Made by a program: the position numbers and the translations under genes. This document shows, one piece after another, positions 33,349 through 50,688 of a stretch of DNA of 52,354 bases (within the stretch, counting starts at the first letter, position 1; each line of letters opens with the position of its first letter). Origin of the DNA: an uncultured bacterium (GTDB lineage Bacteria > Cyanobacteriota > Vampirovibrionia > Gastranaerophilales > Gastranaerophilaceae); NCBI GenBank assembly GCA_903868125.1, contig CAIPUE010000044.1, forward strand, positions 1-52,354, given 5' to 3'. The notes under the pieces are model-generated. The model did no database searches, was not told the DNA's origin, and saw only the letters and a program-made list of their open reading frames with translations.

Positions 33349-34920
33349 ATGCCTTTAGTTGAAAAGAAGTGTAAAATGGACAAATCTCTACTTTATGAAA
33401 AAGTAGAGCAATATGTTTTAGATTATAAAAAATTTATTAGCTTATTGATATTTGACACTAATGAACTACAATCGATTAAAATTCTTTTAGAAAAAATCAT
33501 TTCAAATATTGAAAGTGCTAACTATTTAATTAGAGAAAATAAAATAAATGAGGCAAAAATAGTTTTAAATAGTTCTTTAAAAACAGTTGTCTTAGTTATT
33601 TACTTATGTTGTTTTCCTTCTAAAGTTGAAGAATATCTAGCGGACAGTCAATTACTAACCCTAGAAAAGGATATAGATGATTTTGTTATGGCTATAAACG
33701 ATGAAAAAGAGCAAGCTAAACAAGGAATAACAAGATTATACTTAATTAAAGAATATGAAAATAATTTCAACAGATTAGTCCCATTAGCTAAAGAAAAAAT
33801 ATTAAAAATTATAAATATAAATCAATTCAAATGTGATGATGAGATACTAGCAAAATTAAGTATTTTTTTTAAGGACTTCAACCCATTTTTCTTAAACCTT
33901 GAATTTATGTCCAGAGAGCTAAAAAATAATGGATATAACATAGAACAAGGGGCCAATAAGCTGGAGATAGAGTCAATAATATTACCACTTTTAAACAAAA
34001 CTTCTAAAATTATTGATGGGTCCTTTTTAGAATGGCAGACGAAAAAAATATTGGAAAATGAAAGTAAAGAGTTATTTTTAAACATTAACAGGTCAGTTTT
34101 TCCGCCTATATATTTTTTGAAGCGAATAGTTAAGCCTTGCAACAATATGCAGGCTGAAAAGGTATATAATAGAATTGGCAGACAATATAACGCTTTAGAC
34201 TCATTTGTTTATGATGGTATTATTCCAGAAATTAGTTATGAAAAAAAAGTTGTTTTCTTTATTGATATATTAGCATTTAAATCAATGATTGAAGGTGAGG
34301 GAGAAAATCAGGAAAATAAAAAAACGGCTAATGAAATATATAAACTTTTTGATGATATGCAAAAACATTCTTATGAGTTTAACTCAGTAAATAGCAACAT
34401 GGTTAGCAATATTAAAATAACCCATTTTTCAGATAGCTTAATTATATCCTTTGGGGAAGAAGATAAATTTAATATTTTTGGAGTAATATACTCAATACTA
34501 AGGTTACAGTATTGGCTGCTTAAAAACCATAAAGTACTATTAAGAGGGGGCTGTGCATATGAGGAGTTATTGCATAATGATAATAGAGTATTTGGTAAGG
34601 GGTTAAATTCAGCTTATAACTTAGAGAGTAAATTTGCTAAAAATCCGAGAATTATAATCCCTGAAGAAATTATAAACGAATGTTGTGTTAATAATGAAAC
34701 CAGAGAAAACCTGAAAGAGTTACTGGCAAAAGATGATGATGGCTTTTGGTATGTTGACTATATAAACATTAAACATTTAATGTCAAATGAGGAAAAATTA
34801 TTCAAAGAATATTTAACTTGCATAAAAGAAATTATCAAAAACAATATAAACAATGACGATGAGTCGATAAGAAAAAAATATTTATGGTTGCAAAGTAAAT
34901 ACAATGAAGTTCAGTATTAA
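33349..34920 (+). CDS. Protein with C-terminal class III nucleotidyl-cyclase-like domain
   Basis: ATG 33349 is preceded by TTGGAGTTTAAAGAA; an earlier in-frame ATG lies before a TATAAT box and is unlikely. Of 523 residues, the first 290 are mostly helical and unrecognised. Residues 300-460 look like an adenylate/guanylate-cyclase fold: VVFFIDILAFKSM (Asp306) and HFSDSLIIS (Asp362) supply the two metal-binding aspartates, then LRGGCAYEELL, VFGKGLNSAYNLE and NPRIIIPEEI follow the family order. Such domains occur in Pycsar-type antiphage cyclases, but no effector gene adjoins. The function is inferred. Confidence 0.6.
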   Translation: MPLVEKKCKMDKSLLYEKVEQYVLDYKKFISLLIFDTNELQSIKILLEKIISNIESANYLIRENKINEAKIVLNSSLKTVVLVIYLCCFPSKVEEYLADSQLLTLEKDIDDFVMAINDEKEQAKQGITRLYLIKEYENNFNRLVPLAKEKILKIININQFKCDDEILAKLSIFFKDFNPFFLNLEFMSRELKNNGYNIEQGANKLEIESIILPLLNKTSKIIDGSFLEWQTKKILENESKELFLNINRSVFPPIYFLKRIVKPCNNMQAEKVYNRIGRQYNALDSFVYDGIIPEISYEKKVVFFIDILAFKSMIEGEGENQENKKTANEIYKLFDDMQKHSYEFNSVNSNMVSNIKITHFSDSLIISFGEEDKFNIFGVIYSILRLQYWLLKNHKVLLRGGCAYEELLHNDNRVFGKGLNSAYNLESKFAKNPRIIIPEEIINECCVNNETRENLKELLAKDDDGFWYVDYINIKHLMSNEEKLFKEYLTCIKEIIKNNINNDDESIRKKYLWLQSKYNEVQY

Positions 34921-34938
34921 TTTTTTCACAACTTCTTC

Positions 34939-35019
34939 TAGAGAAGTTCGCCAAGGCTCACTTCCGGATTTAAAGCTCCGACTCCCCATTTTGCTGACGT
35001 CGGCAAAATGGTCTTTTAC
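34939..35019 (+). repeat. Left copies of the 45-base repeat and 26-base palindrome
   Basis: Bases 34939-34983 match 50796-50840 at 44 of 45 positions. The palindrome 34986-35011 (CCATTTTGC...GCAAAATGG) is the exact reverse complement of 50924-50949, and TCTTTTAC follows both. The palindrome could be a terminator of the upstream gene. The pair marks the left edge of the prophage region. Confidence 0.75.
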
Positions 35020-35130
35020 AACAAGGGTTAATAAAAAATGAATTTAGTATCTGTGACTCTGAGAAAAATTTTCTTTCAGTTTAAGAAAAACTTCCCCAAC
35101 TTTTTATCATTTTTGAAGAATTTTATAAAT

Positions 35131-35148
35131 TTCTCAAACCATCTGCTA
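35131..35148 (+). repeat. Left copy of TTCTCAAACCATCTGCTA
   Basis: This 18-base sequence recurs exactly at 51381-51398. At each end a degenerate second copy stands about 21 bases away (TTCTCAAATGG on the left; CTTAAACTATCTGCTA on the right). Matching short repeats at both ends could be transposase-binding sites. Confidence 0.6.
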
Positions 35149-35171
35149 CTTTTTCTCAAATGGTATAGATC

Positions 35172-35290: not shown

Positions 35291-35300
35291 AATTGTAAAA

Positions 35301-36053
35301 AAGTAATCGAAGATTTTAGGGCTGTTGTTTAGTGTTTGTGCGGATTTATACCGCTTCCCCCAGTTTGATAAAAAGGTAATCGAAATGCCCAGAATGCCCG
35401 AACAATTACCTTTTTAATTTTAGAAAAAAGTAATTCAAATTGGATTTTTTTAGCGGAGATTAGCTTGTTATCTATCTTGTAGCCCTGTGGCATTTTTATG
35501 GGCAATCCGGTAATTTCATTTCCCCAATATCCAAATTCCCCCGAAGTCGGTATAACTTTCATGGACAAATGGAAAGGCAAGTAATTGAAATTTAATGCCT
35601 ATTTCATAAACTGTATGGGCGTTTGAGCCACTTCCCCCATTAGACGAACCAGTAAGTAATTAATGTCCGAAATGTCCGGTTTTCATCCTTAAAAAGTCCG
35701 GCTCTCGGACACGGATTTTGCCTCTTTATCTATATATATCTAGCTTTCAGGCATGGACATTTTATTTTTCGTTCAATTACCTGAAAGCCTTAATTCCCTC
35801 TAAAGTCGGAAGTGTTTACAAAGCTTTTAAAACAGGTGTTTCCGCTTTTAAACGTGGAACTCACTTCCCTCTCGTTTCGATTACCTGAAATGAGAATTCT
35901 CATTCTGTCTGTTATTTATATCATATCAACCCAAACCCTTTAAGGGGGAAGTTTTCGTGCGAATTTTTGCCAAAATTTTCAATATTTGATTAAAAATAGA
36001 AAATAAATGTGCCCAAGTAATCGAAATTTCAAATTTCAGGTAATTGAAGCACG
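35301..36053. repeat. Array of about ten AGGTAATYGAA motifs
   Basis: The motif AGTAATYGAA or its complement occurs near 35301, 35374, 35404 (minus), 35429, 35578, 35654, 35771 (minus), 35871 (minus), 36014 and 36038, some copies degenerate. Two copies lie in a longer repeated context with CTTCCCCCA before and an ATGCCC/ATGTCC end. No gene is supportable in this stretch. Clusters of short sites in both orientations before muA match the transposase-end and operator arrangement of Mu-like phages; binding is inferred. Confidence 0.6.
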
Positions 36054-36214
36054 AAATATTTGAATATATTTAAACAAGAACGAACACATTTCCCCCAAAT
36101 CGGTTCCAATTTGAGAGTAAACGATTTATCATTCAGGACAAGCGGATTGCGAGCAGAGGGCGAAACGAAGTGCAGACCCGTTTAATGCGAGCAACCAAGT
36201 TGAGGAATCAAGAT

Positions 36215-38269
36215 ATGGCAAATATAAATAATATTAATACAGAAAACACATGGCTTGATGTTGAGACGGTTGCAAAATTAAAAAACATAAGCAAAAGAGG
36301 AGTTCGGCTCTCGCTTAATCAAGACCGCTATGAATATAAGGTGGAAAAGGTTAAAGGCGGAAAAACATATAAAGTTAAACTAAGCTCTTTAGAAGAAGAA
36401 TATCAGATTAAGTACATCAAAGAATATTATAACGATTTAACTTCCGTAAACGGAGAAATAATTGAACTACAAAATTTCAATGTAAAACAGGAAAAGCTGA
36501 TATCGGAGAACCAAAAGAAAATGGCACTTGCCAAATATGATATTATTATGTGCTGGCTGAACTTCAGGTCGGACTTTAAAAAGAATAAAATTAAAAATGT
36601 AAATGTAGACAAAAAATTTATCGAAGTCTACAACACAGGAATGCTGCATGAGGAAATATTTAAAACTCTCGGCAATGTTTCATTTGGTTCATTGTATAGA
36701 TGGAGGGCTCTCCTTAAATATGATAGTGATTGGACAGCTTTAGTCGGGCAATACAAATATTCAACAAGTAAAGAATATAATACATCCTTGAATGAAGAAC
36801 AGGTCAAAATATTTTTAAAAATACTTTTATCCCCGAATTCGTTTTCAATAGGAAAATCCATTAGTCTCACAAAACATATATTAAATGAAAGAGGTTATGA
36901 AATTCTTCCAAAAGATGTAACCTTCAGAAGATATGCTGAATGGTTCAGGGATGCAAATTATGACAAATGGATACTTGCCCGAGAGGGACAAAAAGCACTG
37001 AAAGACAAAGTTGAACCATATATCGTACGAAACGCAAGTCTTTTGAAAACAGGACAAGTATTAATCGCAGATGGGCACACTTTAAATTTTCAAGTAATAA
37101 ATCCATTCACAGGAAGACCTTGCCGAGCAACATTGCTCGGCTTTTTAGACTGGAAATCAGGTGGGCTTGTCGGCTACGATATTATGCTCGAAGAGTGTAC
37201 ACAAAATATTGCATCCGCACTAAGAAATGCTGTTTTAAATTTGGATCACATCCCCGATTTTGTTTATCAGGATAACGGTAGAGCATTTAAAAGCAAATTT
37301 TTTAATGGGGGCAAAAAGTTTGAAGAATTAGGCTTTACAGGGATTTATCAAAAATTAGGAATAAAGCCTGTTTACGCTGTTCCTTACAATGCTCGAGCAA
37401 AAGTAATCGAAAGATTTTTCCTCGATTTCCAAGAGGGGTTTGAAAAACTTATGCCAAGTTATATCGGAACCAGTATTGAGAATAAACCTGCTTACATGAA
37501 AAGGAATGAAAAATTACACCGGGAGCTCCACGAAAAAAACAACTTTATTCCGACTATTGAGCAGGCAATGATATTTATAAACGATTGGCTGAAGTACAAA
37601 CACGCACAACCCTGCACCAACGCTGAAGGTAAAACAATTCAAGAAGTGCTTGATGAGGTTGAAAAACAAAATATTATTGAAAAACAGCTTGACGATTTAA
37701 TGATGGCTCAAGAGGTAAAACACATCGGCAGAAACGGCATCAGGTTCTTAAAAGCCGATTACTTTGACGAGGCATTATACGGAATTAAAGGGCAGGCAAT
37801 TATTAAATACAGCTTATCGAATTTGAGTTACATAAAAGTTTATTCTCTCAAAGGTGAATTTATCTGCCGAGCCGACAGAGTAACAGAAACCCATCCACTA
37901 GCTGTGCAGATGGGCGGAATTAAAGACATTGAAGATTTCAAACACAAAATCGAAAAACAGCAGAAGCTCAGACGAAAAACTATAAAGGCTGTCAAAGAAC
38001 ATTTCAAGCTGGATGATATTGAGCTTATAGAAAAGGAATTGGTTAATAAAATGTTGGTTAGAGACAATTTAAATCAGCCAAAAAAAGTTGCAAAGGAAAC
38101 AAAATTCATTCCAAAAGTAAAAACTTCGATTGTCGCTCGCCCGATTTTCAAATCAAGTTTTGAAAGATATGACTGGCATATGAAATATGGTTGTATATCG
38201 CACGAAGACAGAAGTTGGTTAGCAAACTATATAAAATCTGAAGAGTACAAAGAAATATATGAAATATAA
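36215..38269 (+). CDS. muA: Mu-type transposase A
   Basis: MuA binds phage ends and carries out strand transfer. ATG 36215 is preceded by GAGGAATCAAGAT; the frame opens earlier but without family sequence. The 684 residues show an N-terminal DNA-binding part (WLDVETVAKLKNISKRGVRL), a second HTH region and the RNase H-like core with LIADGHTL (Asp286), YQDNGRAFKS (Asp353) and AKVIERFF (Glu399), a complete DDE triad. A C-terminal beta domain follows (IIKYSLSNLSYIKVYSLKGE). It is ten bases ahead of the muB-like gene. Confidence 0.93.
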   Translation: MANINNINTENTWLDVETVAKLKNISKRGVRLSLNQDRYEYKVEKVKGGKTYKVKLSSLEEEYQIKYIKEYYNDLTSVNGEIIELQNFNVKQEKLISENQKKMALAKYDIIMCWLNFRSDFKKNKIKNVNVDKKFIEVYNTGMLHEEIFKTLGNVSFGSLYRWRALLKYDSDWTALVGQYKYSTSKEYNTSLNEEQVKIFLKILLSPNSFSIGKSISLTKHILNERGYEILPKDVTFRRYAEWFRDANYDKWILAREGQKALKDKVEPYIVRNASLLKTGQVLIADGHTLNFQVINPFTGRPCRATLLGFLDWKSGGLVGYDIMLEECTQNIASALRNAVLNLDHIPDFVYQDNGRAFKSKFFNGGKKFEELGFTGIYQKLGIKPVYAVPYNARAKVIERFFLDFQEGFEKLMPSYIGTSIENKPAYMKRNEKLHRELHEKNNFIPTIEQAMIFINDWLKYKHAQPCTNAEGKTIQEVLDEVEKQNIIEKQLDDLMMAQEVKHIGRNGIRFLKADYFDEALYGIKGQAIIKYSLSNLSYIKVYSLKGEFICRADRVTETHPLAVQMGGIKDIEDFKHKIEKQQKLRRKTIKAVKEHFKLDDIELIEKELVNKMLVRDNLNQPKKVAKETKFIPKVKTSIVARPIFKSSFERYDWHMKYGCISHEDRSWLANYIKSEEYKEIYEI

Positions 38270-38278
38270 GGAGGAAAA

Positions 38279-39013
38279 ATGAAACGGGTTTTTGTAAAAA
38301 CTAAAAATGTAAAAAACTTTATTACGATGATGAATAACTTACAGCAAAGGGCTGATGGAGTTCCGGGAATGGGGCTTGTGTATGGAGAACCAGGGCTTGG
38401 AAAAACTCAAGCCGTAAACTGGTGGGCAATGAAAAATGATGCGATTGTAGTCAGGTGCAGTAACTTGATGTCAGTGCGTTGGCTTTTATCTGAAGTAGTC
38501 GAGGAGCTAGGAGAAATGCCCTACTATTCAACCGCCGATAGCTTTAAATTAATTGTACAAAAACTTATCAATGAACCTCGGGTAATAATTTTTGATGAGA
38601 TTGACTATCTGACAAGTGAACACAATGTGATTGAAACGATAAGAGATATTCACGATAAAACGAATGTTCCTGTGGTTCTTGTCGGAATGGCACAGGCAAA
38701 CACACGCTTAATGAGGTACAAACACCTCTATGACAGAATATCTGAAATAGTAAGATTTGAACCTTTTACAAAATATGATTTAAACCAAATTTTAAAAGAG
38801 TTAGCAGAGGTTGAACTCACTGACTGTGCCATAAAATATATTCATTCAAAGACAAATCGCTTCAGGCAAATTGTGAAAATTATAAATAAAGCCGAAATTT
38901 TGGCAAAAGCCAACGGACTTTCGACAATAGATGAAATAATTCTTAAGGAGGTGATAAAAGATGAAACAACAGATAGTGAAGCTGTTGAAACGACAGACAA
39001 GATTAAAGTTTGA
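38279..39013 (+). CDS. muB: MuB-like target-selection AAA ATPase
   Basis: MuB-type ATPases coat target DNA and stimulate the transposase. The 244-residue protein has Walker A GEPGLGKT at 36-43, Walker B VIIFDEIDYL at about 103-112, and a sensor region (VVLVGMAQANTRLMR) as in MuB/TniB/IstB-related proteins. ATAAGGAGGAAAA precedes the ATG. Its 3' end overlaps the following gene by 53 bases in another frame, and the next gene's ribosome binding site lies inside it. Confidence 0.92.
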   Translation: MKRVFVKTKNVKNFITMMNNLQQRADGVPGMGLVYGEPGLGKTQAVNWWAMKNDAIVVRCSNLMSVRWLLSEVVEELGEMPYYSTADSFKLIVQKLINEPRVIIFDEIDYLTSEHNVIETIRDIHDKTNVPVVLVGMAQANTRLMRYKHLYDRISEIVRFEPFTKYDLNQILKELAEVELTDCAIKYIHSKTNRFRQIVKIINKAEILAKANGLSTIDEIILKEVIKDETTDSEAVETTDKIKV

Positions 39014-40631
39014 TGAACTTTTAATTCTCTCCGAACTTGAAGAAGACGAACTGGAAAAAATTCTTCAGAAATTGATTTCTGAAGAGATAATAAAAAAAGT
39101 CGGAGATAAATATGTCTACAGACTTCCTCTGATTTCGAGCACCTATGATAAAATGAAAAATCAAAAGGAAAGTAAATATCAAAAATATAATGCTATAAAA
39201 AAGGATTTAAAATCTTTTAATACTGAAGCCCCTAAAAAAGAAAAAGTTTTTAAGAACGAAGAAGAAATTGAGCAATTTAACGCAATGCCTGATTATGCAA
39301 AAAAGTTTGTATTGAAATATCTTACAGCAATGAAAGCCGCAGGTTCTTTAAGAGGTGCGGCCCTGCATCTATTTTTGAAAAATTTTGCAGAACATAACCC
39401 TGAGTACAAAGTAAACTATTCTTCTTTTATGAAAGCACGAAAAGATTATTTAACATCAGGAATTTCAGGTTTAATTCCAAACTATGGAAACAAGAATAAG
39501 TGCTCGATTATCAAAGATGAGGAATATTCTGCATTTAGAGAGCTCTATCTCACGCCTGACAGCAGAAGCGTTGCAGGATGTTTAAAATTAATGAAAGAAA
39601 AAGGTGTGTTTGGTAACAGAATAATTATTCCAACTGAAGTTTCGTTTAAAAGGAGACTTCTCAAAGACTTTTCGGTTGATGAAATAAAGCAGATTCGCAC
39701 CAAGCATATCTTCTTCCCTGAAGAGTTTATGACAGAAGTCAATAATACTATGCCCAAAAAACGAGGTCGAAAAAAGAAAAATATTACATTTATGAATTGC
39801 AAAAATCTGATTCAGGCAAGCGAATTGTTTTTGAAGTCAGATAAATTCTATTCGAATCCTGAAGCAAGGCAGAAAAATATTCAGTCAGTGTTGAACAAAC
39901 ATCTGCTGCCGTTTTTTAAAGATTTAGAATTTAAAGATATTACTGATGAAACTATCGAAAAGTTCAAAATTCAAAAGCTTTCAGAGGGCTATCGACCTGC
40001 CAGTATTTCAATATTTTTAAATGTAATGCAGGAAATAACTTCAAGATATTCTAAAATTCAGATTAAAAATTACTTTATTTATTTAAAAGTTACAGAGGAT
40101 TTTTTAATTTTAAGCACGGCAGAAATGGCTGAATTGCTGAATAAAACAAAACATACAAAATTGTACCTGCCATTATTATTAACGCTGTGTTTGGGGCTAT
40201 CCTTGCCCGAAATAAAGGCTTTAACAGCCGAAGATATAGGCTTAAAAGCAAATAAAATCTCTATAAATAAGATTTTTGGAAATGATGGGTTGCAAAAATA
40301 TCGGACCAAATATCAAATAAGAGAAATTACAATTCCAAAATCACTAAGAAAATTTTTGAATAAACTAACCTCAAAAGATTTTGAATATTTTAAAAATATT
40401 ACCAATGCGGAATTGAAAGGAATATCAGAAAAAGACATAACGTTTCTTGATCTGCAAAACAGTTATATTAATAATCTAATCCGTAATAATATTCCGTTGA
40501 ATTTAATCGCCAAGCAAATCGGCTTGGCGAACACAAACGAACTCGTAGAAAAATACGGTGCATTTATTGATGATAAAGCTTTGGCTAAATTTGATTTTGC
40601 AAGTCAATTAACACTAAAGATTAATGATTGA
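38961..40631 (+). CDS. MuA-like DNA-binding region fused to a degenerate tyrosine recombinase
   Basis: AAGGAGGTGATAAAAG before ATG 38961 supports this start inside muB. Of 556 residues, 1-60 look like a winged helix, and 95-260 resemble the DNA-binding region of Mu-family transposases (GSLRGAALHLFLKNFAEHNP, YLTSGISGLIPNYGNKNKC). Residues 290-365 form a SAM-like core-binding domain, and 395-540 follow the tyrosine-recombinase fold. The catalytic Arg is lost (LGLSLPE, 411-417), HxLR is LDLQ (496-499) and the GH of box II is GL (521-522), while Tyr532 remains. Catalysis is unlikely; a DNA-binding or architectural role is inferred. Confidence 0.7.
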   Translation: MKQQIVKLLKRQTRLKFDELLILSELEEDELEKILQKLISEEIIKKVGDKYVYRLPLISSTYDKMKNQKESKYQKYNAIKKDLKSFNTEAPKKEKVFKNEEEIEQFNAMPDYAKKFVLKYLTAMKAAGSLRGAALHLFLKNFAEHNPEYKVNYSSFMKARKDYLTSGISGLIPNYGNKNKCSIIKDEEYSAFRELYLTPDSRSVAGCLKLMKEKGVFGNRIIIPTEVSFKRRLLKDFSVDEIKQIRTKHIFFPEEFMTEVNNTMPKKRGRKKKNITFMNCKNLIQASELFLKSDKFYSNPEARQKNIQSVLNKHLLPFFKDLEFKDITDETIEKFKIQKLSEGYRPASISIFLNVMQEITSRYSKIQIKNYFIYLKVTEDFLILSTAEMAELLNKTKHTKLYLPLLLTLCLGLSLPEIKALTAEDIGLKANKISINKIFGNDGLQKYRTKYQIREITIPKSLRKFLNKLTSKDFEYFKNITNAELKGISEKDITFLDLQNSYINNLIRNNIPLNLIAKQIGLANTNELVEKYGAFIDDKALAKFDFASQLTLKIND

Positions 40632-40767: not shown

Positions 40768-42066
40768 CTAGCCTAAAAGTTTGCAAACATTTCGAATTAA
40801 AAATAGTGGAATATTGAACAATCCGCTGTTTTCTTCGTAATTTGCAAGGGATGTTCTAACTACATATTTAGGATTAAATTTTTCTCTATAACTTTTTAAA
40901 CTTTTTGCCTGTAAATTAATTGTGGCCTTAGCTTCAATTGGAATAATCTCGCTTTTATATTGAATTATAAAGTCGAGCTCTGCTCTGTTACTTGACCAAT
41001 AAAATATTGGTAAATCATTTATTGTTTTAAGCTCCTGTAAAACATACTGTTCGGTTATTGCACCATTATAATCATTAAATAATTTGTCATTTTTAAGTAG
41101 TGATTTTACATCTAAATCTGTCATTGCTCCAAGTAATCCAGTGTCTAAAATAAACAATTTATAGGCACTAATATCTTCATAAGCCTTTAATGGCATTTTG
41201 GGCTCAGTCGCTCTTGAAATTTTATAGACTAAGCCTGAATTTATTAGCCAATTTAATGAAATCTCAAAATCTTTTGCTCTTGCTCCGGACTTTATTTGCC
41301 CATAAACACACTTTTTATTTTCCTTTATTAGTTGTGACGGTATTGAGTTCCACAATAAGCGTGTACGCTCAACTTGTTCCGGCGGAATATGTTTTGAAAA
41401 ATCTTGTTCATAGTCATTTAAAATATTTTTTTGAATTTTTCTAACTAGTTGATAATCTTGAGTTTCGGAATACTCTTGAACGGCTTTTGGCATTCCTCCG
41501 ACATAGCAATACTTTCTAAGTAAATCAATAATTTTATCTTTAAAAACCTCTAGCATATCAAAATTGTTATTTTCAATTATTTCCAATATGGAATTTTCTT
41601 TTATTGCAAGCAAAAATTCTTGAAAAGATAATGGGCGCAATTCATAAGATTCAACTTTTCCAACTGGGAATCCGGTTCCTTTATGATATGAAACACCCAA
41701 TAAACTTCCTGCCGCAATAATATCATATTCAGGAGCATTTTCTGTAAAATATTTTAAAGAAGTAATTGCCAAAGGGTTTTCTTGAATTTCATCAAAAATA
41801 ATTAATGTATCTATTGGGGTTATTTTAAATCCAACTTCAATCCCCAATCCATCAAGAAGCCTTTTAGTATTCAAATCCCCCTGAAATAAAATGTCTAACC
41901 TTGGGTTGCTATCAAATGAAACGTAGGCAACTTTTGTGTATTCTTTTTTGCCGAATTCTTGCATTAGCCAAGTTTTTCCAACCTGACGAGCCCCTTTTAT
42001 TATTAAAGGAAGGTGTTTCGGATTGTTTTTCCACTCTATTAACTCTTTTATTGCATGTCTGTACAT
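40768..42066 (-). CDS. AAA ATPase with DUF4143 domain
   Basis: This 432-residue member of the common AAA_14/DUF4143 family has Walker A GARQVGKT (24-31), Walker B TLIIFDEIQENP, and a C-terminal DUF4143 region with a nuclease-like fold containing FYWSSNRAELDFIIQYKSEI and IPIEAKA, a D...E-x-K arrangement. The cellular role of these proteins is unclear; many lie in mobile or accessory DNA. It begins the leftward gene series of the prophage region and is separated from the pseudorecombinase by 137 bases of convergent spacer. Confidence 0.9.
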   Translation of the reverse strand: MYRHAIKELIEWKNNPKHLPLIIKGARQVGKTWLMQEFGKKEYTKVAYVSFDSNPRLDILFQGDLNTKRLLDGLGIEVGFKITPIDTLIIFDEIQENPLAITSLKYFTENAPEYDIIAAGSLLGVSYHKGTGFPVGKVESYELRPLSFQEFLLAIKENSILEIIENNNFDMLEVFKDKIIDLLRKYCYVGGMPKAVQEYSETQDYQLVRKIQKNILNDYEQDFSKHIPPEQVERTRLLWNSIPSQLIKENKKCVYGQIKSGARAKDFEISLNWLINSGLVYKISRATEPKMPLKAYEDISAYKLFILDTGLLGAMTDLDVKSLLKNDKLFNDYNGAITEQYVLQELKTINDLPIFYWSSNRAELDFIIQYKSEIIPIEAKATINLQAKSLKSYREKFNPKYVVRTSLANYEENSGLFNIPLFLIRNVCKLLG

Positions 42067-42192: not shown

Positions 42193-42522
42193 TTAAAACA
42201 AAATTTCTTTAATATACTTTTTAAGTCTATCAATATCTGCTTTAAATTCTTTTTCTGCGGCGGCGGCGTTGCTGCGATAAGTTACATGGTAGCAGAGTCC
42301 CTTTGGTGTATTCATTTCTGAATATGGAATTGAGTAAACTGGCTCCCATTTTTCATCTTTCAAAATATATGCTCTAGCGTAGCATTGTTGGTCGTATGAA
42401 TCCGATTTGATTTCTAGTTTTATTCGTTTTTCTTCTAGCTTATAAATTTCTCTAAAACTTATGGATTGGGATCCTTTATAAGTGATTTTTTCAATTGTTG
42501 TTTCTTTTATTTTTTTTGACAT
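42193..42522 (-). CDS. Small protein of unknown function
   Basis: I chose the start at 42522 because AGGAGAACGCC precedes it; nine earlier codons are in frame. The 109 residues have a beta-like first half (TIEKITYKGSQSISFREIYK), an alanine patch (NAAAAEKEF) and a basic helix at the end. No family is recognised. It lies in the leftward phage gene series between the DUF4143 and DUF4268 genes and has a good ribosome binding site, so it is probably expressed. Confidence 0.5.
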   Translation of the reverse strand: MSKKIKETTIEKITYKGSQSISFREIYKLEEKRIKLEIKSDSYDQQCYARAYILKDEKWEPVYSIPYSEMNTPKGLCYHVTYRSNAAAAEKEFKADIDRLKKYIKEILF

Positions 42523-42592
42523 GGCGTTCTCCTTAAGCTCTCTATTCATGCGGGTTTAGGATTGGGGCAAATTGTGCCCACAACCTCTTTTT

Positions 42593-42781
42593 TTATTCTT
42601 CAACCGTGGTTATGTTATCCATCGCTGTGTTGTATTTTTTACCTTGGGAATCAACGCAGGTCGCGAAGTCTACTTTGCCGTCAGCGTAAACGTTAACCCA
42701 GGTTGATATTAATAACCCGATTTCTTGTTTTTTGTGGTTGTAAATTTTAGTTCCGTACATTGTGTAATCTTTAGTCGTCAT
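42593..42781 (-). CDS. Small protein of unknown function (62 aa)
   Basis: Minus-strand AAAGGAGATAAAATT precedes the ATG. The 62 residues are beta-rich and polar (MYGTKIYNHKKQEIGLLIST, then FATCVDSQGKKYNTAMDNI), without membrane segments. No family is recognised. Same strand and spacing as its phage neighbours. Confidence 0.5.
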   Translation of the reverse strand: MTTKDYTMYGTKIYNHKKQEIGLLISTWVNVYADGKVDFATCVDSQGKKYNTAMDNITTVEE

Positions 42782-42888
42782 AATTTTATCTCCTTTGTTG
42801 TTTATCTACAATCACATTAATCACTTGTCGCAGTCCGAATTACAAGCTATTCGGACTATTGCGAATCATTCCAACACAATGTTTTTTA

Positions 42889-43683
42889 TTATAAATATTT
42901 GCTAAAAACGGTTTTAAAATTTTGAGCTAAATCGATATGGGCTTTTATTGCTTCATCGATTTGTGTTGAGTCTGTTATATCAAAGCTCAGTGTTTTTCTT
43001 ATTTTTGAGGATTTGTTATCAGGTTCATTTATCCAATCCAAAACTCCAAGTTCTTTCTCTATCTCTTTTTGATGGGTTTGGAGTTCTTCAAAAATACTCT
43101 TTTTGTAATTTATAAGTAAATCCACTCCGATGTATTTTATTTGAGTGCTTATGGTTAACATCAGTGCAACACCTGCTTTACCCATCGGAAGATATTGCCA
43201 ATGTTGATATCTTGGGTTTATTTGAACATCAGGGTTAACTTCGTCGCATATTTCAAAATATCGCTTCCAGTATTCAATTTGAATCTGCTTCGCTCTACTT
43301 TGTCCTTGAGTTTTTAATTCAGGTTTTAAAAGGCATTTAAACTCAATTTTATCGTTGTTTAAAGAGGCTTTAAAAATAAAAATGCCGAAGTTTTTGTTCG
43401 AAAATTTATTCAATGATTCAACGGCCGTGAGCAAGTTTTCTCTTTCATTTGCAACTATCCAAACTATAAATGGAGGCTGCGGAAGGTTTTTAATTTCGTT
43501 TAGGGCATTGATAATTGTCTCAGAATTTTGTGTTAAATCTGCAATCGTAACGATTGTTTTGCCGTTCGCTTTTGGGTAATCGGCAAGTACCGATATAACT
43601 TCAGGTGCATTGTGATTTGCCATAAATTTTTCAAAGTTGGCTTTGCTTTTAAAAGCATCTTGAGGGATGATTTTTTCTGTCAT
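42889..43683 (-). CDS. DUF4268-type protein
   Basis: ATG 43683 has AAAAGGAGAACTATT before it. The 264-residue protein looks like DUF4268-containing proteins: an N-terminal alpha/beta part (KTIVTIADLTQNSETIINAL, FIVWIVANERENLL) and a C-terminal part with IEYWKRYFEICDEVNPDV, GKAGVALMLTISTQIKYIGV and a helix carrying LQTHQKEIEKELGVLDW. Such proteins are often nuclease-related and carried on phages and islands. The biochemical role is not established, and no clear nuclease triad can be assigned. Confidence 0.6.
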   Translation of the reverse strand: MTEKIIPQDAFKSKANFEKFMANHNAPEVISVLADYPKANGKTIVTIADLTQNSETIINALNEIKNLPQPPFIVWIVANERENLLTAVESLNKFSNKNFGIFIFKASLNNDKIEFKCLLKPELKTQGQSRAKQIQIEYWKRYFEICDEVNPDVQINPRYQHWQYLPMGKAGVALMLTISTQIKYIGVDLLINYKKSIFEELQTHQKEIEKELGVLDWINEPDNKSSKIRKTLSFDITDSTQIDEAIKAHIDLAQNFKTVFSKYL

Positions 43684-43790
43684 AATAGTTCTCCTTTTAT
43701 TTTTTACATTGACATTCATCCCTCGCAATAGCTTTCAATTAAAGTGTTTTAGACTATTCTGAATCATTTAGACACAATAATTTTTGCAAA

Positions 43791-44081
43791 TTATTTTCTT
43801 AAATCAGCAACAATGCCTGATAAATGATTTGCAAAAGATTCAAGAGCGTTCACACCTTGCTCAAAACAATAATTATCAACATCATTTGGTGTCGCGTTGA
43901 CTTTGTCTTTCAATTTAAAAAGACTATCAACTGCCGGTTGAGTGTATTTTGCAAGGTTCTCATAGAGTTTGGTTACACAATTGGGCACGTTTTTTTGAAT
44001 CAGATTCATAATAAACGGTTCAATCAATAACCAAATGACGTTTAATTTTTTCCAATTTGTGAGTAGTGCTAAAAAGTTCAT
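43791..44081 (-). CDS. Small phage protein beside the lysis gene
   Basis: ATG 44081 overlaps the amidase stop (ATGA) and follows AAGGAAAAGCACT. The 96 residues begin with a moderately hydrophobic region (NFLALLTNWKKLNVIWLLIE) and continue as a charged helix. Position and coupling to the amidase suggest a holin-like or spanin-like accessory role, but only one weak hydrophobic segment is visible. The function is inferred from context. Confidence 0.5.
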   Translation of the reverse strand: MNFLALLTNWKKLNVIWLLIEPFIMNLIQKNVPNCVTKLYENLAKYTQPAVDSLFKLKDKVNATPNDVDNYCFEQGVNALESFANHLSGIVADLRK

Positions 44082-44590
44082 AGTGCTTTTCCTTTCTTTG
44101 TTTGAGTAATGTACCAATCAATTTTATTTCTTAGATAATCACCTCCTTTTTCAACTGCTATATTTGGTAAAAACGGGAAGTAGGTAAAATCAATCTTTCC
44201 GTAACTCGTTGTTTTAGGATGTTTTTGTCCGAACTCATGATGCGTAAATACGGTTTCAGGTGAAACTTTGATTCCGTATTTAATACAAAGTTCTGCCGCC
44301 AATTTGCAAAACGCTTCGACCTGAATTTTGGTAAGCGGATATTTTGTTTTTTTATCATTCAAATTAAATCCTGCCATTCCGAGTGCAGATAAACCTATAC
44401 AACCTGTATTACCGCCTCCGCAATGCATTGCGTATTGATTAGGTTTGCAGATTATATTGCATTCAGGCTTAAAATGTCCCTGATAAACTTTTCCGTCCTT
44501 ATCAACCAAAAAGTGATAGGCTTTTAGGTCAACTTCGCAGGGGTAAGATGCTCCGGCGCTCCAGTGTAAACAAATTTTAGTTAGTGGCAT
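44078..44590 (-). CDS. N-acetylmuramoyl-L-alanine amidase (phage endolysin)
   Basis: This 170-residue amidase_2/PGRP-type enzyme cleaves the lactyl-amide bond of peptidoglycan for host lysis. Zinc ligands are likely His in CLHWSAGASYP and HHEFGQKHP, with YHFLVDKDGKVYQGH, GNTGCIGLSALG and a final HPKTTSYGKIDF completing the family pattern. There is no signal peptide, so a holin or similar is needed. AAAGGAAAATAACT precedes the ATG. It lies between tail-fibre accessory and holin-like genes, as in many phages. Confidence 0.92.
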   Translation of the reverse strand: MPLTKICLHWSAGASYPCEVDLKAYHFLVDKDGKVYQGHFKPECNIICKPNQYAMHCGGGNTGCIGLSALGMAGFNLNDKKTKYPLTKIQVEAFCKLAAELCIKYGIKVSPETVFTHHEFGQKHPKTTSYGKIDFTYFPFLPNIAVEKGGDYLRNKIDWYITQTKKGKAL

Positions 44591-44607
44591 AGTTATTTTC
44601 CTTTCTT

Positions 44608-45009
44608 TTATCCAAGTTCTGTTATTTCATTTCTTAATTCATTAACCTGCAAATTGTAATACTCAAGCCAAGTTTGACCGGTTGTTGCATCTTTAATTTC
44701 AGGCTCACACATTGCTCTAATTCTTTTTCTGTCAAGTTCGCTAATTTGCAGCTGCAAATCATTTATTTTTTCATTTTTTTCAGCTGCTGAAATTTTTGAT
44801 TTATAATCATTGGTCTGTGTAATATCAATAATTTTGTTATTTTTATCAAATGAATACCCGTTTCCACTGTTATAAAGAGTCATTTCTGCATCTGTATAAT
44901 CAATGTAACCGTCAGTTTCAAGTAAAGTCGGATTTTGATTATAATTTAAAATATTATCCTTATTTTGAGGTGGAAAAATTAATATTCCGTTTTCGTTTTT
45001 TGCATACAT
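44608..45009 (-). CDS. Phage tail fibre accessory protein
   Basis: The 133 residues end with a pattern frequent in phage tail genes: LQISELDRKRIRAMCEPEIK followed by TGQTWLEYYNLQVNELRNEI, which forms a coiled coil. The N-terminal half has DGYIDYTDAEMTLYNSGNGY. Proteins of this kind sit beside tail fibres as assembly or fibre-cap proteins. GGAGAACGACA precedes the ATG. The assignment rests on pattern and context. Confidence 0.6.
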   Translation of the reverse strand: MYAKNENGILIFPPQNKDNILNYNQNPTLLETDGYIDYTDAEMTLYNSGNGYSFDKNNKIIDITQTNDYKSKISAAEKNEKINDLQLQISELDRKRIRAMCEPEIKDATTGQTWLEYYNLQVNELRNEITELG

Positions 45010-45027
45010 TGTCGTTCTCCTTTATTT

Positions 45028-45765
45028 TTAAATTGTGTTTATAAGTGAAATTGAATTAACTTGCCCATAACAAGATTCCCCCTGGTCATTCGTGACCCAA
45101 CTGGACATAAATATATTCATTCCTCTGCCGGTTAATGTTTCTACAGATACAGAATTAGAAACCAGTGACAAAGTCATTGGTGTATTTCTCAAGTCCCCAG
45201 CTCCAAAGGCCGCATATAATTGATTCCCGATAAGTTTAAATTTTAGAGTGTAATAAGTATTACAATTGCTGATAGTTCCTATTGCACTTGCGTTTAATAT
45301 GCTTCCGTTTAAATATGCATGTGCATTTGTACAAGAACCGTCATAACCTCCCGCTGATAATACCGCAAAACTTAATCCTGTTGTGGTTCTTATATTTCTA
45401 TAATAACTATCATCAGCCACATAACTTGCGTTATTACAAAAGAAATTATATGAAGTGGTTTGCCTATGGAGCGATGTACCCATATAGCCATAAATCGTAC
45501 CTTCTAAAACAGTTGGAACAATATTTGTAAGCCCTGAATATCCAAAATGGTTTATAATATAGCCATAATACCAATTTGTTGTACTTTGCCATTGGATCAT
45601 TCCGTTACTGCTATAATTTATTCTTGGCATATAGCCTGAACCTGCCGACCATCCTCCATATCCGCCAGTATAATCAGTAACATTAGACCAAGCTTGAGTA
45701 GCAAAATTAGATTGCCAAGAGCTTTGTGAGCCGCTTTTAATTAATGATATTTTGGGATTTGCCAT
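45028..45765 (-). CDS. Putative phage receptor-binding / tail protein
   Basis: Start chosen at 45765 (MANPKISLI). The 245 residues are rich in Ser, Tyr, Gly, Asn and Trp (TDYTGGYGGWSAGSGYMPRI, LKFKLIGNQLYAAFGAGDLR) and look all-beta with a lectin- or jelly-roll-like composition. It follows the tail fibre with the start overlapping its last codon, so translation is probably coupled. A receptor-binding tip is likely from position; no named family is recognised. Confidence 0.55.
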   Translation of the reverse strand: MANPKISLIKSGSQSSWQSNFATQAWSNVTDYTGGYGGWSAGSGYMPRINYSSNGMIQWQSTTNWYYGYIINHFGYSGLTNIVPTVLEGTIYGYMGTSLHRQTTSYNFFCNNASYVADDSYYRNIRTTTGLSFAVLSAGGYDGSCTNAHAYLNGSILNASAIGTISNCNTYYTLKFKLIGNQLYAAFGAGDLRNTPMTLSLVSNSVSVETLTGRGMNIFMSSWVTNDQGESCYGQVNSISLINTI

Positions 45766-47240
45766 TATACAGTACCTGTAAATTGTGAGTAATAACCTTT
45801 CCAAGTTGTACCACCATCTTTTGTATCAAAGATGAAGCGATTTACAAGGGTATTCGATAATGATGGAGGTATACCGTAATTCCAAGAAATGTTTGTTGGA
45901 ATTGTTAATGAAATTCCACTTGCTAAAGTGAAATCAATTAATAAGTTATGAAATTTTGTTGAAACGGAAGGTAAAGTCAAAGTGCAAGCTGCTGTTATAT
46001 TTCCCTTATGTACTCTATCTGCCGTAAGTGTAAAATTTGATGTTATTGTACCTAAATCAACAACATCAAAAAGGGTAACGTTTCCAAGGTCAGAATCGGC
46101 TTTTGCATTTAAGCTGTTATTAATTGTCAGTAAACTAGCCGAAACATAGTCTTTAACATTCTTGTATGATGGGATATTTAAATCAGCAGAAGCACTCACG
46201 CTTGAAGCATAAGATAATAAAGCCGTTGCAGTAACCGTTCCATCTTTTTTTAAAAAGTTTTGTGCCGTTATATAATCCTTGACATTTTTATATGAAGGAA
46301 TATCCTGATCGCCTGCCGCGGCTACTGCTGCAGCATATACTAAAAGGCTTGTTGGAAGAACAGTTCCGTCCTTTTTTAAATAATTTAACCCAGCAACATA
46401 ATCTTTGACATTTTTATAAGAGGGTATGTTTAAATCAGCCGAAGCAGTTACGATAGATGCATAAGATAAAAGGCTTGTAGCCGTGACGGTTCCATCTTTT
46501 TTTAAATAATTTAGTCCGGTAATATAATCTTTAACATTTTTGAAAGACGGAATATCTAAATCAGCCGAAGCACTTACTACAGCAGCATAGCCAAGAAGTG
46601 AAGTTGCTTTATTTGTACCGTCCGTCTTAATTATCTTGCTTAAATCAACAGAAAGTTTATTGCTAAGAAGTTTTAAAGTTGTGTCAAATTCAAGCGATAA
46701 AGCACCGTTTGTATTTTTTATCGGCAAAGAACAATTCATTCCGGATATATTCTGAGTAATCATATTTGTAACCTCGCCTGCGGTTGGCACGGTTTGGCTT
46801 GTTGGTGTTAAAACTGCTTGAGTTTGTGGGTTTGTATAAATAATTTTTGGAGTAAAGGTCAGAGGCTGATACAAACCTGAAGCAAGCGCGAATTTATCCT
46901 GCGCCGGAAGTTTGCAGATTAAAATCAAATCATTTTCATCATCAAAAAGTCCGAGCTCCCTAATCGTGAAACCTCCAATGTCAGCAGGGATAAAACATTT
47001 ATATAAAACTTCATTTGCAGCCGCCGGGTTTATAACAATCTGACTTTGAGTTCCTGCAACGAAAGTTCCTGTATATTTTGTATTTACCAAAGCAGTTTGA
47101 TTTTCGTTGGGCTCGTAGTATGCCCCATTGCCATCACCGACTTTGAATGTAATTATATTCAGTGCAGTACCTGATACTTCAGCCAATGCTTTTTTCTGTT
47201 GTCCTATTTTTGTTAGTATATTTGTAAAATTTTCACTCAT
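45765..47240 (-). CDS. Phage tail-collar fibre protein with 42-residue repeats
   Basis: The N-terminus (KIGQQKKALAEVSGTALNII, FKVGDGNGAYYEPNENQTAL) is typical of tail-collar fibre proteins of P2/Mu-like phages and attaches to the baseplate. Residues 200-370 hold four tandem repeats of 42 residues, each with DGTVTATSLLSYAS, SADLNIPSYKNVKDY and LNYLKK, forming the fibre shaft. The C-terminus is a beta-rich tip. The 491-residue length is plausible. It sits directly after tail protein I, as in these phages. Confidence 0.85.
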   Translation of the reverse strand: MSENFTNILTKIGQQKKALAEVSGTALNIITFKVGDGNGAYYEPNENQTALVNTKYTGTFVAGTQSQIVINPAAANEVLYKCFIPADIGGFTIRELGLFDDENDLILICKLPAQDKFALASGLYQPLTFTPKIIYTNPQTQAVLTPTSQTVPTAGEVTNMITQNISGMNCSLPIKNTNGALSLEFDTTLKLLSNKLSVDLSKIIKTDGTNKATSLLGYAAVVSASADLDIPSFKNVKDYITGLNYLKKDGTVTATSLLSYASIVTASADLNIPSYKNVKDYVAGLNYLKKDGTVLPTSLLVYAAAVAAAGDQDIPSYKNVKDYITAQNFLKKDGTVTATALLSYASSVSASADLNIPSYKNVKDYVSASLLTINNSLNAKADSDLGNVTLFDVVDLGTITSNFTLTADRVHKGNITAACTLTLPSVSTKFHNLLIDFTLASGISLTIPTNISWNYGIPPSLSNTLVNRFIFDTKDGGTTWKGYYSQFTGTV

Positions 47241-47243
47241 AAT

Positions 47244-47654
47244 TTATCCAATCATTACTTCGTTTTCAGCATTCGTGTAAGTTAACCAATTAAGTGGTGC
47301 ATCAAACTGTGACTCGATACTGATTTCTTCAAGCACACTCCTAACATTTTTGTATTCATCAATCATTTTTTTTAAGCTATCAAAAACCTTTTCGTTATAA
47401 ATATAATTTTGGAGAAAGATGTCGATTTTAAAGTGATAGGGGTCGCCCTCATATTCAAACCATTCTTGAATTTCACCAGTTATATTTAAAGAGTTCAAAA
47501 CTTTAATCAGGGCATATTTAGTACCTTTATATCGGTGCAATTCAATTGCTTTTTTTATGATTTCTCGTTTATCAGCCTCAGTTTTTGTCTGAAGCCAACC
47601 TTCGTTTCCCATGATGTGAAATTGGTCTGCAAGATGAACAAGTGCAGATGTGTC
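47244..47654 (-). pseudogene. Phage tail protein I, 5'-truncated
   Basis: The frame continues upstream of ATG 47612 as DTSALVHLADQFHIMGNEGW before a stop at 47655-47657. The remaining 137 residues match the C-terminal two thirds of P2 gpI/Mu gp48-like baseplate proteins: LQTKTEADKREIIKKAIELH, RYKGTKYALIKVLNSLNITG and EIQEWFEYEGDPYHFKI. The N-terminal third is gone, and the break falls about 70 bases from the start of the GHKL-TIR gene, so insertion of that cassette or a linked deletion removed it with the upstream baseplate genes. Confidence 0.82.
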
Positions 47655-47723: not shown

Positions 47724-49619
47724 ATGGCTGCTGAAAAAGAATATAGGTTAGAAATTGACCCAAGTATATTAAAATTATTAGGACCAAATTTATATACAAA
47801 TATTTATTATGTACTTGCTGAATTAATAGCAAATGCTTATGATGCAAGTGCTAAAAATGTCTATATCATTAACAAAGATGATTCAATAATTGTTGAAGAT
47901 GATGGAAAAGGAATGTCTTATCAAAATGGAGAAGTAGACCATTATTTAGATGTAGCAAAAGAAACAAGAACTACAGCTGAAGATGGATTAACTGGTGACA
48001 AGCCTCCAAGACGAAAAATGGGGAGAAAAGGGGTTGGTAAGTTATCAGCTCTATCTGTCTCAGAAAACGTAATTATTAAAACAAAAGCAAATGGGGAATG
48101 TTCAGGATTTGTACTTTCACGTTCTGTGCCGGGTAATAAACTTTTGCAGCCATTAGAAGATGCAACAATTACCTTTGAGAAAATTGAGGATATTAATCAT
48201 GGAACATCAATAGTAATGACTAACCCTGAGTACAACATGCACAAAACTCATGATGCAATTAAGAAAAATTTATTAAAAATATTTCCTATGGTAAATTCTG
48301 ATTTTCAAATACATATTATAACTGCAGATAAGGAAACTGTTATAAATTCGTTTGAAAAAGAAATGGTTGTAGAATTAGGGACTTTAGAATTAATAGGTGA
48401 GGAGTTCAAATATTTAAAGGATTTTTATCAAAATCCCTTCCCTGATAATCCTGATAGTGTAAATTTTTTATTGATGATTCCGGCTATTACAGAATCCATT
48501 TTACTAACAAATAAAAACGGCGACCAAAAAGAATACGTTCAAGAAATAAAAGGTTGGATAGGTACATATAAGTCAACAGCGGGTAAAAAGCTTGGTGATA
48601 AAACTGACTTTCCGGATAATTTCATATCTTTATTCGCAAATAATAAACTAGGCGAATTTAACATATTACCAATTATTGGAAAAAACCGATTGCCTGAGGT
48701 TTATATTGTCGGACAATTACATATAGATTTATTTGAAGAAACAGAATTACCAGATATGGCTCTTAGCAATAGACAAGGGTATAAAACTGAAGATAAAAGA
48801 TACCAAGCTTTATTAAAAAAGGCCGATGTATTACTTACTAAAACTCTTTCCATAAGGAATAAATATGCCGATATTAGCAAAGCAAAACGAACTGAAATTT
48901 TATTAGAAGCCCAAAAGAAAAAAGATGAAGCATTAACAAACGCGGTTGTACAATATAAGGAATCATTTAAAAATAGTTTATCTAAGAATATAAAAAAAGT
49001 TAATGATACAATTTCTGATGACGTAATTCAACAAGTTGCAGATGAAACAAGTAATGAAACAATAGGTTTACTTGGACTCAAACAAGATGCAGACAAAAAG
49101 CGGAAAAGAATATTGCTTAGCCAAACCAAAGCAGATAAACCATTATCGGATATAATATATGAAATGTTACTGTATAATAATATTTCTAAGGAAGAAATAA
49201 TATATAGCAATAGTGCAAATATTGAGTCAAGAATACCTTCAAGAACAGATGTATATGATTATTTAAGAGATTTATTTGTTGATACTTATTCAAAAGAAAA
49301 ATTATACATTATATACGTTACTAGTCAAAACATGCATGAATCTTGGGGATGTCATATGGAGGCAGGAGCTGGATGGATAATCAAAAATGAATGGACCATC
49401 TTTAATAGCAACTCATATATACCAGAAAAGCCAATAGACGATGGTACAATTTGGCATTCTAGCGACTTAGAAGATGGGCGTGTTTCAATGGATGCTGGCA
49501 ATGTAGAAATTTTTATAGAAAATATAAGCCATATTTGCAGTATCTTAGAATATACAAGTAAGAGCCATGATGAAAACTTAAACCACTTAAAAAGAATGAT
49601 TGACGTTATTGAAAATTAA
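47724..49619 (+). CDS. GHKL (Hsp90/MutL-type) ATPase with TIR-like C-terminal domain
   Basis: The N-terminus has the full ATP-binding Bergerat fold: ELIANAYDA (33-41), DDGKGM (59-64) and GRKGVGKLSA (100-109). A transducer-like region follows (RLPEVYIVGQLHIDLFEETE), then a helical stretch. Residues 462-600 read as a TIR-like domain: RILLSQTKADKPLSDIIYEM as first strand and helix, EEIIYSNSA, IPSRTDVYDYLRDLF, then LYIIYVTSQNMHESW and GCHMEAGAGW, where Glu546 sits at the TIR catalytic position. It converges on a cytosine methyltransferase with a 14-base overlap. Probably the effector/ATPase of a restriction-like defence system. Confidence 0.75.
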   Translation: MAAEKEYRLEIDPSILKLLGPNLYTNIYYVLAELIANAYDASAKNVYIINKDDSIIVEDDGKGMSYQNGEVDHYLDVAKETRTTAEDGLTGDKPPRRKMGRKGVGKLSALSVSENVIIKTKANGECSGFVLSRSVPGNKLLQPLEDATITFEKIEDINHGTSIVMTNPEYNMHKTHDAIKKNLLKIFPMVNSDFQIHIITADKETVINSFEKEMVVELGTLELIGEEFKYLKDFYQNPFPDNPDSVNFLLMIPAITESILLTNKNGDQKEYVQEIKGWIGTYKSTAGKKLGDKTDFPDNFISLFANNKLGEFNILPIIGKNRLPEVYIVGQLHIDLFEETELPDMALSNRQGYKTEDKRYQALLKKADVLLTKTLSIRNKYADISKAKRTEILLEAQKKKDEALTNAVVQYKESFKNSLSKNIKKVNDTISDDVIQQVADETSNETIGLLGLKQDADKKRKRILLSQTKADKPLSDIIYEMLLYNNISKEEIIYSNSANIESRIPSRTDVYDYLRDLFVDTYSKEKLYIIYVTSQNMHESWGCHMEAGAGWIIKNEWTIFNSNSYIPEKPIDDGTIWHSSDLEDGRVSMDAGNVEIFIENISHICSILEYTSKSHDENLNHLKRMIDVIEN

Positions 49620-50664
49620 AATGTTTGAGGTGTTTTTGAATTGTTTCACCAATTATTTTCCCTAAATCAACTGGCACAGCATTTCCAATTTGCCTGCCAA
49701 CATGCTTAAACAAAGGTGCCTCACCTTTCTTTATAAATTTATAATTTTTAGGGAAAGTCTGCAAAATTGCTCCTTCTCTTAAAGAAAGTGCTCGATTTTG
49801 TTCAGGGTGACCATATCTTCCTGTCCCATAAATATAAAACTGTGTTGTCATGGTTGGTGATGGCTTATCCCATTCCATACGCCCGTACACAGAACTATAA
49901 GTCTGTCCTGACTTCTTCTTATGACATTCAAGAATTAATGACGCATCCCAATCCTTCCAAGTTCCGCCAGGTTTTGATTGCTTCATTCTCCGTACATTTA
50001 GTTCAGATAAATCTGCACTTCTATGTAATGGGTCTTTTGAATCTGATTCGCCATAGCTAATAGGTGGCAAATCTTTTAAAACATCTTTGACTGTTCGTTT
50101 TTTTAATCTTTTACTAGGTTCAATTAATTCTATAGACCCAAATTTGGAAGCTAATAATACTAATCTTCTGCGTTTTTGAGGTAGTCCATATGTGCTACAA
50201 TCAACAATTTTATAAGAAACATAATACCCCTGTTTTTCCAAATTTGACTTAAATTCATCAAAAACGTCAAAATTTGTTAATTCTGGCACGTTTTCCATTG
50301 AAATAATGTCGGGCTTTACGTTATTGATATGAGCAGTAAACGACTGCAACAAAGTCCACTTTTTGTCATGGATTCTTTCTTTATATTTGTTTGTTTGTTT
50401 TGAAAAAGTTTGACAAGGGGCGCAGCCTACAAGAATTTTTATGTCAGAATTTCCGTATAATTTTGTTATTTCGTGACTGTCAAAACTTGAAACATCTGCT
50501 TGAATAAATTTTGCTTTGTTATTTGCTTCATAAGCATATTGACAGCTCCCATCATTATCAAGGCCTGCAACAACATTTAATCCAGATTTTGCCAATCCGC
50601 AGGTGAGTCCCCCCACTCCACAGAATAAATCCACTATTTTAACATCTCTTTTATCTTTTTCCAT
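49606..50664 (-). CDS. DNA (cytosine-5) methyltransferase
   Basis: This 352-residue Dcm-type enzyme moves a methyl group from S-adenosylmethionine to C5 of cytosine. Motif I is VDLFCGVGGLTCGLAKSG, motif IV GCAPCQTFSK with nucleophile Cys84, motif VI ISMENVPEL, motif VIII near YGLPQKRRRLVLLASK, and motifs IX-X RALSLREGAILQTFP and VGRQIGNAVP. The target recognition region is about 200-270; the recognition sequence cannot be read. The start at 50664 follows TTGGAGTT. It converges with the GHKL-TIR gene and is the likely self-marking partner. Confidence 0.95.
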   Translation of the reverse strand: MEKDKRDVKIVDLFCGVGGLTCGLAKSGLNVVAGLDNDGSCQYAYEANNKAKFIQADVSSFDSHEITKLYGNSDIKILVGCAPCQTFSKQTNKYKERIHDKKWTLLQSFTAHINNVKPDIISMENVPELTNFDVFDEFKSNLEKQGYYVSYKIVDCSTYGLPQKRRRLVLLASKFGSIELIEPSKRLKKRTVKDVLKDLPPISYGESDSKDPLHRSADLSELNVRRMKQSKPGGTWKDWDASLILECHKKKSGQTYSSVYGRMEWDKPSPTMTTQFYIYGTGRYGHPEQNRALSLREGAILQTFPKNYKFIKKGEAPLFKHVGRQIGNAVPVDLGKIIGETIQKHLKHFNFQ

Positions 50665-50688
50665 AACTCCAATTACAACTTTTGTCAA

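Follow-up and report, generated by a model that had tools for sequence, protein, structure and literature searches.

A catalytically dead tyrosine recombinase as putative target selector of Mu-type transposons beside tRNA genes in Gastranaerophilales

Transposition to nearly random sites is classically exemplified by phage Mu and, to our knowledge, canonical Mu requires no third factor of the kind described here. What, then, is the role of a third gene that follows muA and muB in one bacterial operon? This question is raised by a stretch of 52,354 nt from an uncultured member of the Gastranaerophilaceae (contig CAIPUE010000044.1; hereafter the window, meaning the whole stretch analyzed). A first-pass annotation of the window described this gene, here called T3, as a transposase-type DNA-binding region fused to a catalytically dead tyrosine recombinase.

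The three genes lie on the forward strand. The first, muA (36170–38269), encodes a DDE transposase (phrog_310, E = 4e-87; Pfam Mu-transpos_C, 1e-12) and the second, muB (38279–39013), a MuB-type AAA+ ATPase (phrog_296, E = 7e-51; TniB, 2e-8). A MuA-type DDE transposase and a MuB-type AAA+ ATPase therefore share one operon, which identifies the locus as a Mu-type module. T3 is an open frame of 556 aa (38961–40631) overlapping muB by 53 bp, and its ribosome binding site, AAGGAGGTGAT (38945–38955), lies within muB, 5 bp upstream of the ATG. The overlap and the perfect ribosome binding site reported in the first-pass annotation are thus confirmed. No Pfam match to TniQ was obtained in any of the three operon proteins (MuA, MuB, and T3).

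The architecture of T3 was deduced from profiles, alignments, and an AlphaFold2 model (pLDDT 79, 19 sequences). Residues 1–57 (38961–39131) are predicted to fit MarR-type winged helices (Z about 11), and the t3n profile finds this part at the N-terminus of third proteins throughout the family; the cysteines of the protein are single and scattered, and the N-terminus is this winged helix, with no zinc fingers. Residues 58–248 (39132–39704) constitute a MuA-like DNA-binding module, of which residues 58–237 match the MuA family (phrog_310, E = 5e-8). The core-binding and catalytic domains of a tyrosine recombinase occupy residues 280–545 (39798–40596), as indicated by profile, alignment, and predicted structure: residues 304–539 match integrases (phrog_1, E = 1e-11), and the predicted segment 280–552 fits the Tn1549 integrase with Z 17.8, which corresponds to a full tyrosine-recombinase fold with both domains. 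Pfam matches are few in T3, a divergent member of its kind; its homologue L036 matches Phage_integrase (E = 4e-18), Phage_int_SAM_3, and HTH_Tnp_Mu_2 (E = 1.5e-5). The resemblance of the N-terminal half to the DNA-binding domains of Mu transposase, noted from the letters alone, is borne out by the phrog_310 match and by HTH_Tnp_Mu_2 in L036, and the predicted structure answers the objection that a recombinase fold might be absent.

We aligned T3 with four stand-alone integrases of the same genomes, all of which present the set R-H-R-H-Y. The corresponding positions of T3 read S414-L496-Q499-L522-Y532. Because T3 was aligned with these intact controls, the earlier residue calls (recombinase layout and Tyr532 kept, the other catalytic residues lost) can be accepted, and no other part of the protein holds an intact catalytic set. 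Among fused T3 relatives the first Arg position is S, T, or K and the His of HxxR is present in none; relatives of 357–384 aa mostly read K-D/N-R-D/Y-Y, with L101 alone retaining the first Arg. The Tyr is retained in most T3 relatives, and it may be kept because DNA binding needs it, by analogy with MrpR of SPbeta, which has no recombinase activity, keeps its Tyr, and requires it to bind DNA (PMC10516654). The dN/dS of T3 ranges from 0.06 to 0.16, recombinase part included; between the window and L033 it is 0.16 for T3, 0.05 for MuA, and 0.03 for MuB, indicating that T3 is constrained yet faster evolving. These comparisons indicate that the recombinase part of T3 is catalytically dead while under purifying selection, and alignment, profiles, and predicted structure all support the earlier phrase that it was built from a dead recombinase.

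We further analyzed the element that surrounds the operon. Its left end (35294–36048) comprises the terminus TGTAAAAAAGTAATCGAA, placed with an uncertainty of some 20 bp, and an array of AGGTAATYGAA-type sites that are likely bound by MuA: seven of the nine AGGTAATYGAA matches in the window fall at 35301–36048, and about 3.4 would be expected in the whole window. The terminus motif recurs at L034 with one mismatch, and left-end homology extends to both L034 and L035. The probable right-end region (50781–51402) contains two 147-bp repeats with eight exact copies of TTTTCCATTT (51047–51313), so that both arrays reported in the first-pass annotation are real. A tRNA-Met gene on the reverse strand (51539–51615), its 3′ end toward the element, is the probable target; G092 shows the same arrangement, its tRNA-Met lying next to similar repeats and its T3 being 71% identical to that of the window. 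The right-end repeats recur in degenerate form at 34907–35160, which suggests an older insertion. No empty site of the window's element was found in G001.

The cargo consists of an AAA_14/DUF4143 protein (40768–42066, −), which PADLOC reports as candidate defence PDC-S01, a partial phage late region with amidase, tail fibre, and Tail_P2_I (42193–47612, −), and a HATPase-type putative type II restriction protein (+) with a C5 DNA methyltransferase (−) (47724–50688). A spaced repeat of 126 bp occurs in three diverged copies in the tail-fibre gene, at 46143–46628. Defence-type cargo was seen in the T3 elements of the window (47724–50688), L048 (11057–14206), L043 (3958–6369), and L034 (11573–13369), and cargo types in other T3 elements include type I restriction, HEC-06/Orf5-like, and PDC-S06. 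Two tyrosine-integrase fragments also lie in the window on the reverse strand, at 1340–1597 and at 6102–6410; the latter still reads HDLRH.

Is T3 an isolated oddity? The genome survey that had been proposed for the muA-muB-T3 order showed that it recurs at about 20 loci of related genomes belonging to several families of the window's order. T3 is therefore a conserved family and not one odd gene, which goes beyond the earlier note, as does the finding that these elements target tRNA genes. Tandem copies are found at L038, L040, and L045, split versions at L050 and L052, and the N part only at L051. The tandem copies are diverged pairs that follow a single muB (L038 8951–12065; L040 8657–11974; L045 5157–8432), possibly forming a heterodimeric or two-target selector. 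Records with a close T3 are, where named, assigned to Candidatus Gastranaerophilales or Melainabacteria. Across a sample spanning the phylum, full-length T3 was confined to the window's order, and the matches outside, among those listed, concern the integrase part alone; phage records and viral contigs yielded no relative of T3.

A search with MuA was positive in 68 of 146 relatives and yielded about 100 muA loci of Candidatus Gastranaerophilales, gut bacteria with cyanobacterial kinship, most of the genomes being metagenome-assembled drafts in which contig ends curtail many loci. In nearly all complete loci, a third gene lies 3′ of muB and its product begins with the winged helix of T3 (t3n profile). 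The genes muA, muB, and this third gene are the sole conserved gene set of the elements, the third gene being the only extra one. What follows the winged helix varies: the MuA-like module alone (L126, L114, and L051), the core-binding domain alone (164–228 aa), the core-binding domain with a dead catalytic domain, either truncated or complete (about 260 and 357–384 aa), or, in T3 itself, the MuA-like module with a dead recombinase. In third proteins of 214–229 aa the module has no confident match, and Foldseek found none for it in the PDB, which does not imply a novel fold. In an unrooted and thinly sampled tree, intact integrases separate the short dead proteins from the fused T3 group, a topology compatible with more than one co-option of dead recombinases.

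Two other arrangements were observed in the course of this survey. Two transposition modules are apparent in L085 (7100–12824), L092, L093, L119, L121, L127, L135, and L136, where a selector-type operon (muA, muB, and a third gene of about 221 aa) at a tRNA gene immediately precedes a further muA/muB set of the canonical Mu-phage type; these may be elements or prophages. In L055, L060, L066, L113, L129, and L130, mostly located at tRNA-Ile(gat), a short MuA (about 560–620 aa) and a core-binding-only selector (169–205 aa) are accompanied by a conserved, helix-turn-helix-like gene of 132–139 aa.

Elements of the T3-related muA family sit just 3′ of tRNA genes. Of 69 muA loci with 6 kb of upstream sequence, 40 have a co-oriented tRNA gene within that distance and one has a tRNA gene in the opposite orientation. 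The tRNA genes downstream of muA are all in the opposite orientation, so that in all cases but one the tRNA 3′ end faces the element. Left termini start 35–118 bp past the tRNA, in most cases on the far side of its terminator-like hairpin, an interval in which about 0.2% of elements would be expected by chance (a rough estimate assuming 40–45 tRNA genes per 2 Mb). Several T3 elements start directly at such a distance: 54 bp past tRNA-Ser (L049), 61 bp past tRNA-Met (L199), 61 bp past tRNA-Ser (L203), and 109 bp past tRNA-Gln (L208). A further one, L043, lies 92 bp past tRNA-Ile, after 14 bp resembling another element's end. An upstream tRNA is absent from the sequence at hand in 10 of the 17 fused-T3 loci. 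Among Mu-phage loci without a third gene, two of nine have a tRNA gene no more than 2 kb away, and nine loci are too few to serve as a control. The targets seen for the T3 family are tRNA 3′ flanks or the left ends of other elements, and no insertion in comM was encountered among them. In 12 genomes of the genus of L043, homology to it breaks off at the tRNA 3′ end or slightly beyond, which identifies this flank as an insertion hot spot.

Many T3 elements are nested in left ends that belong to other Mu-type elements. L034 sits after nucleotide 208 of an L105-type left end (100% identical) and L035 before nucleotide 200 of this type; L044, L046, L047, L050, and L052 are nested in left ends of other types, L043 is flanked on both sides by pieces of yet another type, and L042, L048, L197, and L201 look nested by eye. 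No tRNA is in view at L046 and L052, so a foreign end is their common feature. We had considered the outer left ends of the clade-B T3 elements as their own, and dropped this idea: outer ends differ between L043 and L044, which are 89% identical elements, so these are nested insertions. Restriction of nesting to T3 elements is also weakened, as L059 seems nested while L199, L203, and L208 lie directly at tRNA genes. Different T3 elements of genome G001 break one left-end type at the same position (L034 6047–6100 and L035 10735–10770), which could mean that a single composite insertion is seen from both sides or that one site was hit twice; CACAT, common to both breaks on the two contigs, is a possible 5-bp target duplication. 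The T3 elements of L046 (780–11463) and L047 (2200–12880) are 98.6% identical in genomes of different families of the order, an identity that points to recent transfer. The nesting itself may reflect either a pile-up at one tRNA gene or a MuA-like module reading foreign MuA sites.

We propose that T3 selects the target for a MuA/MuB transposon, and we assign this reading a probability of about 0.6. Of the roles suggested in the first-pass annotation, target choice is positively supported by the tRNA siting, by the modular third protein, and by its co-variation with the tRNA, and nothing observed here points to immunity. The identity of the tRNA was predicted by the nearest neighbour at 17 of 42 loci when the C part of the third protein was used and at 10 of 42 when MuA was used (1000 shuffles: mean 3.6, maximum 12). 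L084 and L085 (both at Met), and likewise L090 and L093 (both at Phe), share selector and tRNA while their MuA proteins are more diverged. As a counter-example, L043 and L044 have T3s that are 97% identical and lie by tRNA-Ile and tRNA-Met, respectively, both nested beside other elements' ends. Similarities of MuA and of the third protein are themselves correlated (r 0.81), and the match between tRNA and third protein, drawn from related sequences, is correlative and no proof that T3 acts at the target.

Under the proposed mechanism, the family-wide N-terminal winged helix would be an adaptor docking on MuB or MuA, and the C-terminal modules of T3, the MuA-like module and a recombinase fold without its chemistry, would recognise target DNA. 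T3 at the target would load MuB, and MuA would then join the element a short way off, in the position 3′ of the tRNA gene and the single orientation that we observed. Sister elements carry other DNA-binding modules on the same winged helix, and therefore the selector would be swappable. A more specific version, which we hold only tentatively, is that T3-type elements home, via the MuA-like module, on resident Mu-type left ends at tRNA genes, the winged helix being the fixed adaptor for swappable modules. It is in the same tentative sense that these modules might have been drawn from MuA, from tyrosine integrases, and from a further helix-turn-helix protein.

Alternatively, T3 could be a transpososome factor whose MuA-like module binds the element's own ends and aids assembly or regulation of the MuA complex, leaving the choice of site to MuA and MuB. 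This end-binding role, also suggested in the first-pass annotation, would account for the relationship of the N part of T3 to the end-binding region of MuA and for the strongly correlated similarities of MuA and the third protein. However, several sister elements have no MuA-like module and carry an integrase core-binding domain alone, the third protein predicts tRNA identity better than MuA does, and canonical Mu, as far as we know, does without such a factor; we consider this role unlikely. A repressor of the transposition operon seems less likely again. There are precedents in MrpR, which lost Arg and His, kept its Tyr, binds DNA, and represses (PMC10516654), and in SroF, the phage phi3T repressor, which is among the fold matches of T3, and the winged helix resembles MarR-type regulators. 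T3 is, however, the last gene of the operon and translationally coupled to muB, and exchanges of its DNA-binding modules among elements go along with changes of the target tRNA. Repression and target selection could nonetheless be compatible roles of T3.

The siting might also owe nothing to T3, if insertion is tolerated anywhere and the tRNA flanks reflect survivorship or a general hot spot. Such flanks are insertion hot spots, as the 12 congeneric genomes illustrate, but tolerance alone would not be expected to produce a 40 to 1 bias in orientation or a left-terminus spacing of 35–118 bp, and we regard this explanation as improbable. That T3 is merely a decaying integrase gene without function, as the missing catalytic residues could suggest, is hardly credible: all fused relatives lack the first Arg and the HxxR His, the integrase controls are intact, and the gene is open in the same operon at about 20 loci of several families with low dN/dS throughout, including the recombinase part. 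A single decayed gene is thus ruled out.

Target selection by T3 would have a parallel in TnsF, through which Tn6022 selects comM and which is likewise a dead tyrosine recombinase (Faure et al. 2023, PMC10293859). The earlier statement that Mu needs no such partner holds, but outside Mu a dead recombinase acting as target selector is already known. Both proteins are transposon-encoded inactivated tyrosine recombinases whose genes share an operon with those of a DDE transposase and an AAA+ ATPase, and target choice, for T3 a proposal, would be a further likeness. TnsF has zinc fingers, tandem core-binding domains, a partial catalytic domain, a TniQ partner, and comM as its target, whereas T3 joins a winged helix and a MuA-like module to a full recombinase fold and is accompanied by MuA/MuB instead of TnsB/TnsC, with no TniQ in the operon and with sites at tRNA genes or Mu-type ends. 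Because zinc fingers, a TniQ partner, and a comM target were not encountered, T3 is not a TnsF: it would work like one, with a different build and adaptor, in a Mu-type and not a Tn7-type element. TnsD/TniQ proteins of Tn7 and CASTs similarly combine a common adaptor part with a variable DNA-binding C-terminal part, but T3 has a winged-helix adaptor and no detected TniQ domain. Some CASTs home to tRNA genes. The element resembles phage Mu in having a MuA DDE transposase and a MuB AAA+ ATPase in one operon and a site array adjoining muA; Mu inserts nearly at random and, as far as we know, has no third target protein. MrpR (SPbeta) and SroF (phi3T) (PDB 9rgl, 9rd5) share the tyrosine-recombinase fold of T3, but they are prophage regulators without a MuA-like module, and the available descriptions do not place them in a transposase operon. 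We found no description of a T3-type system in the open-licence papers searched.

Our results suggest that the same MuA/MuB engine can be given a fixed address by one added protein, and that dead integrases were co-opted as selectors in Mu-type elements, just as in Tn6022, an element of the Tn7 type. If true, dead recombinases would be a recurrent source of target selectors and, if T3 elements home on resident left ends, these would be transposons homing on transposons. The family also offers a compact three-protein system in which module swapping could probe target choice. Finally, T3-family elements carry defence genes, and their siting therefore bears on the formation of defence islands in these gut bacteria.
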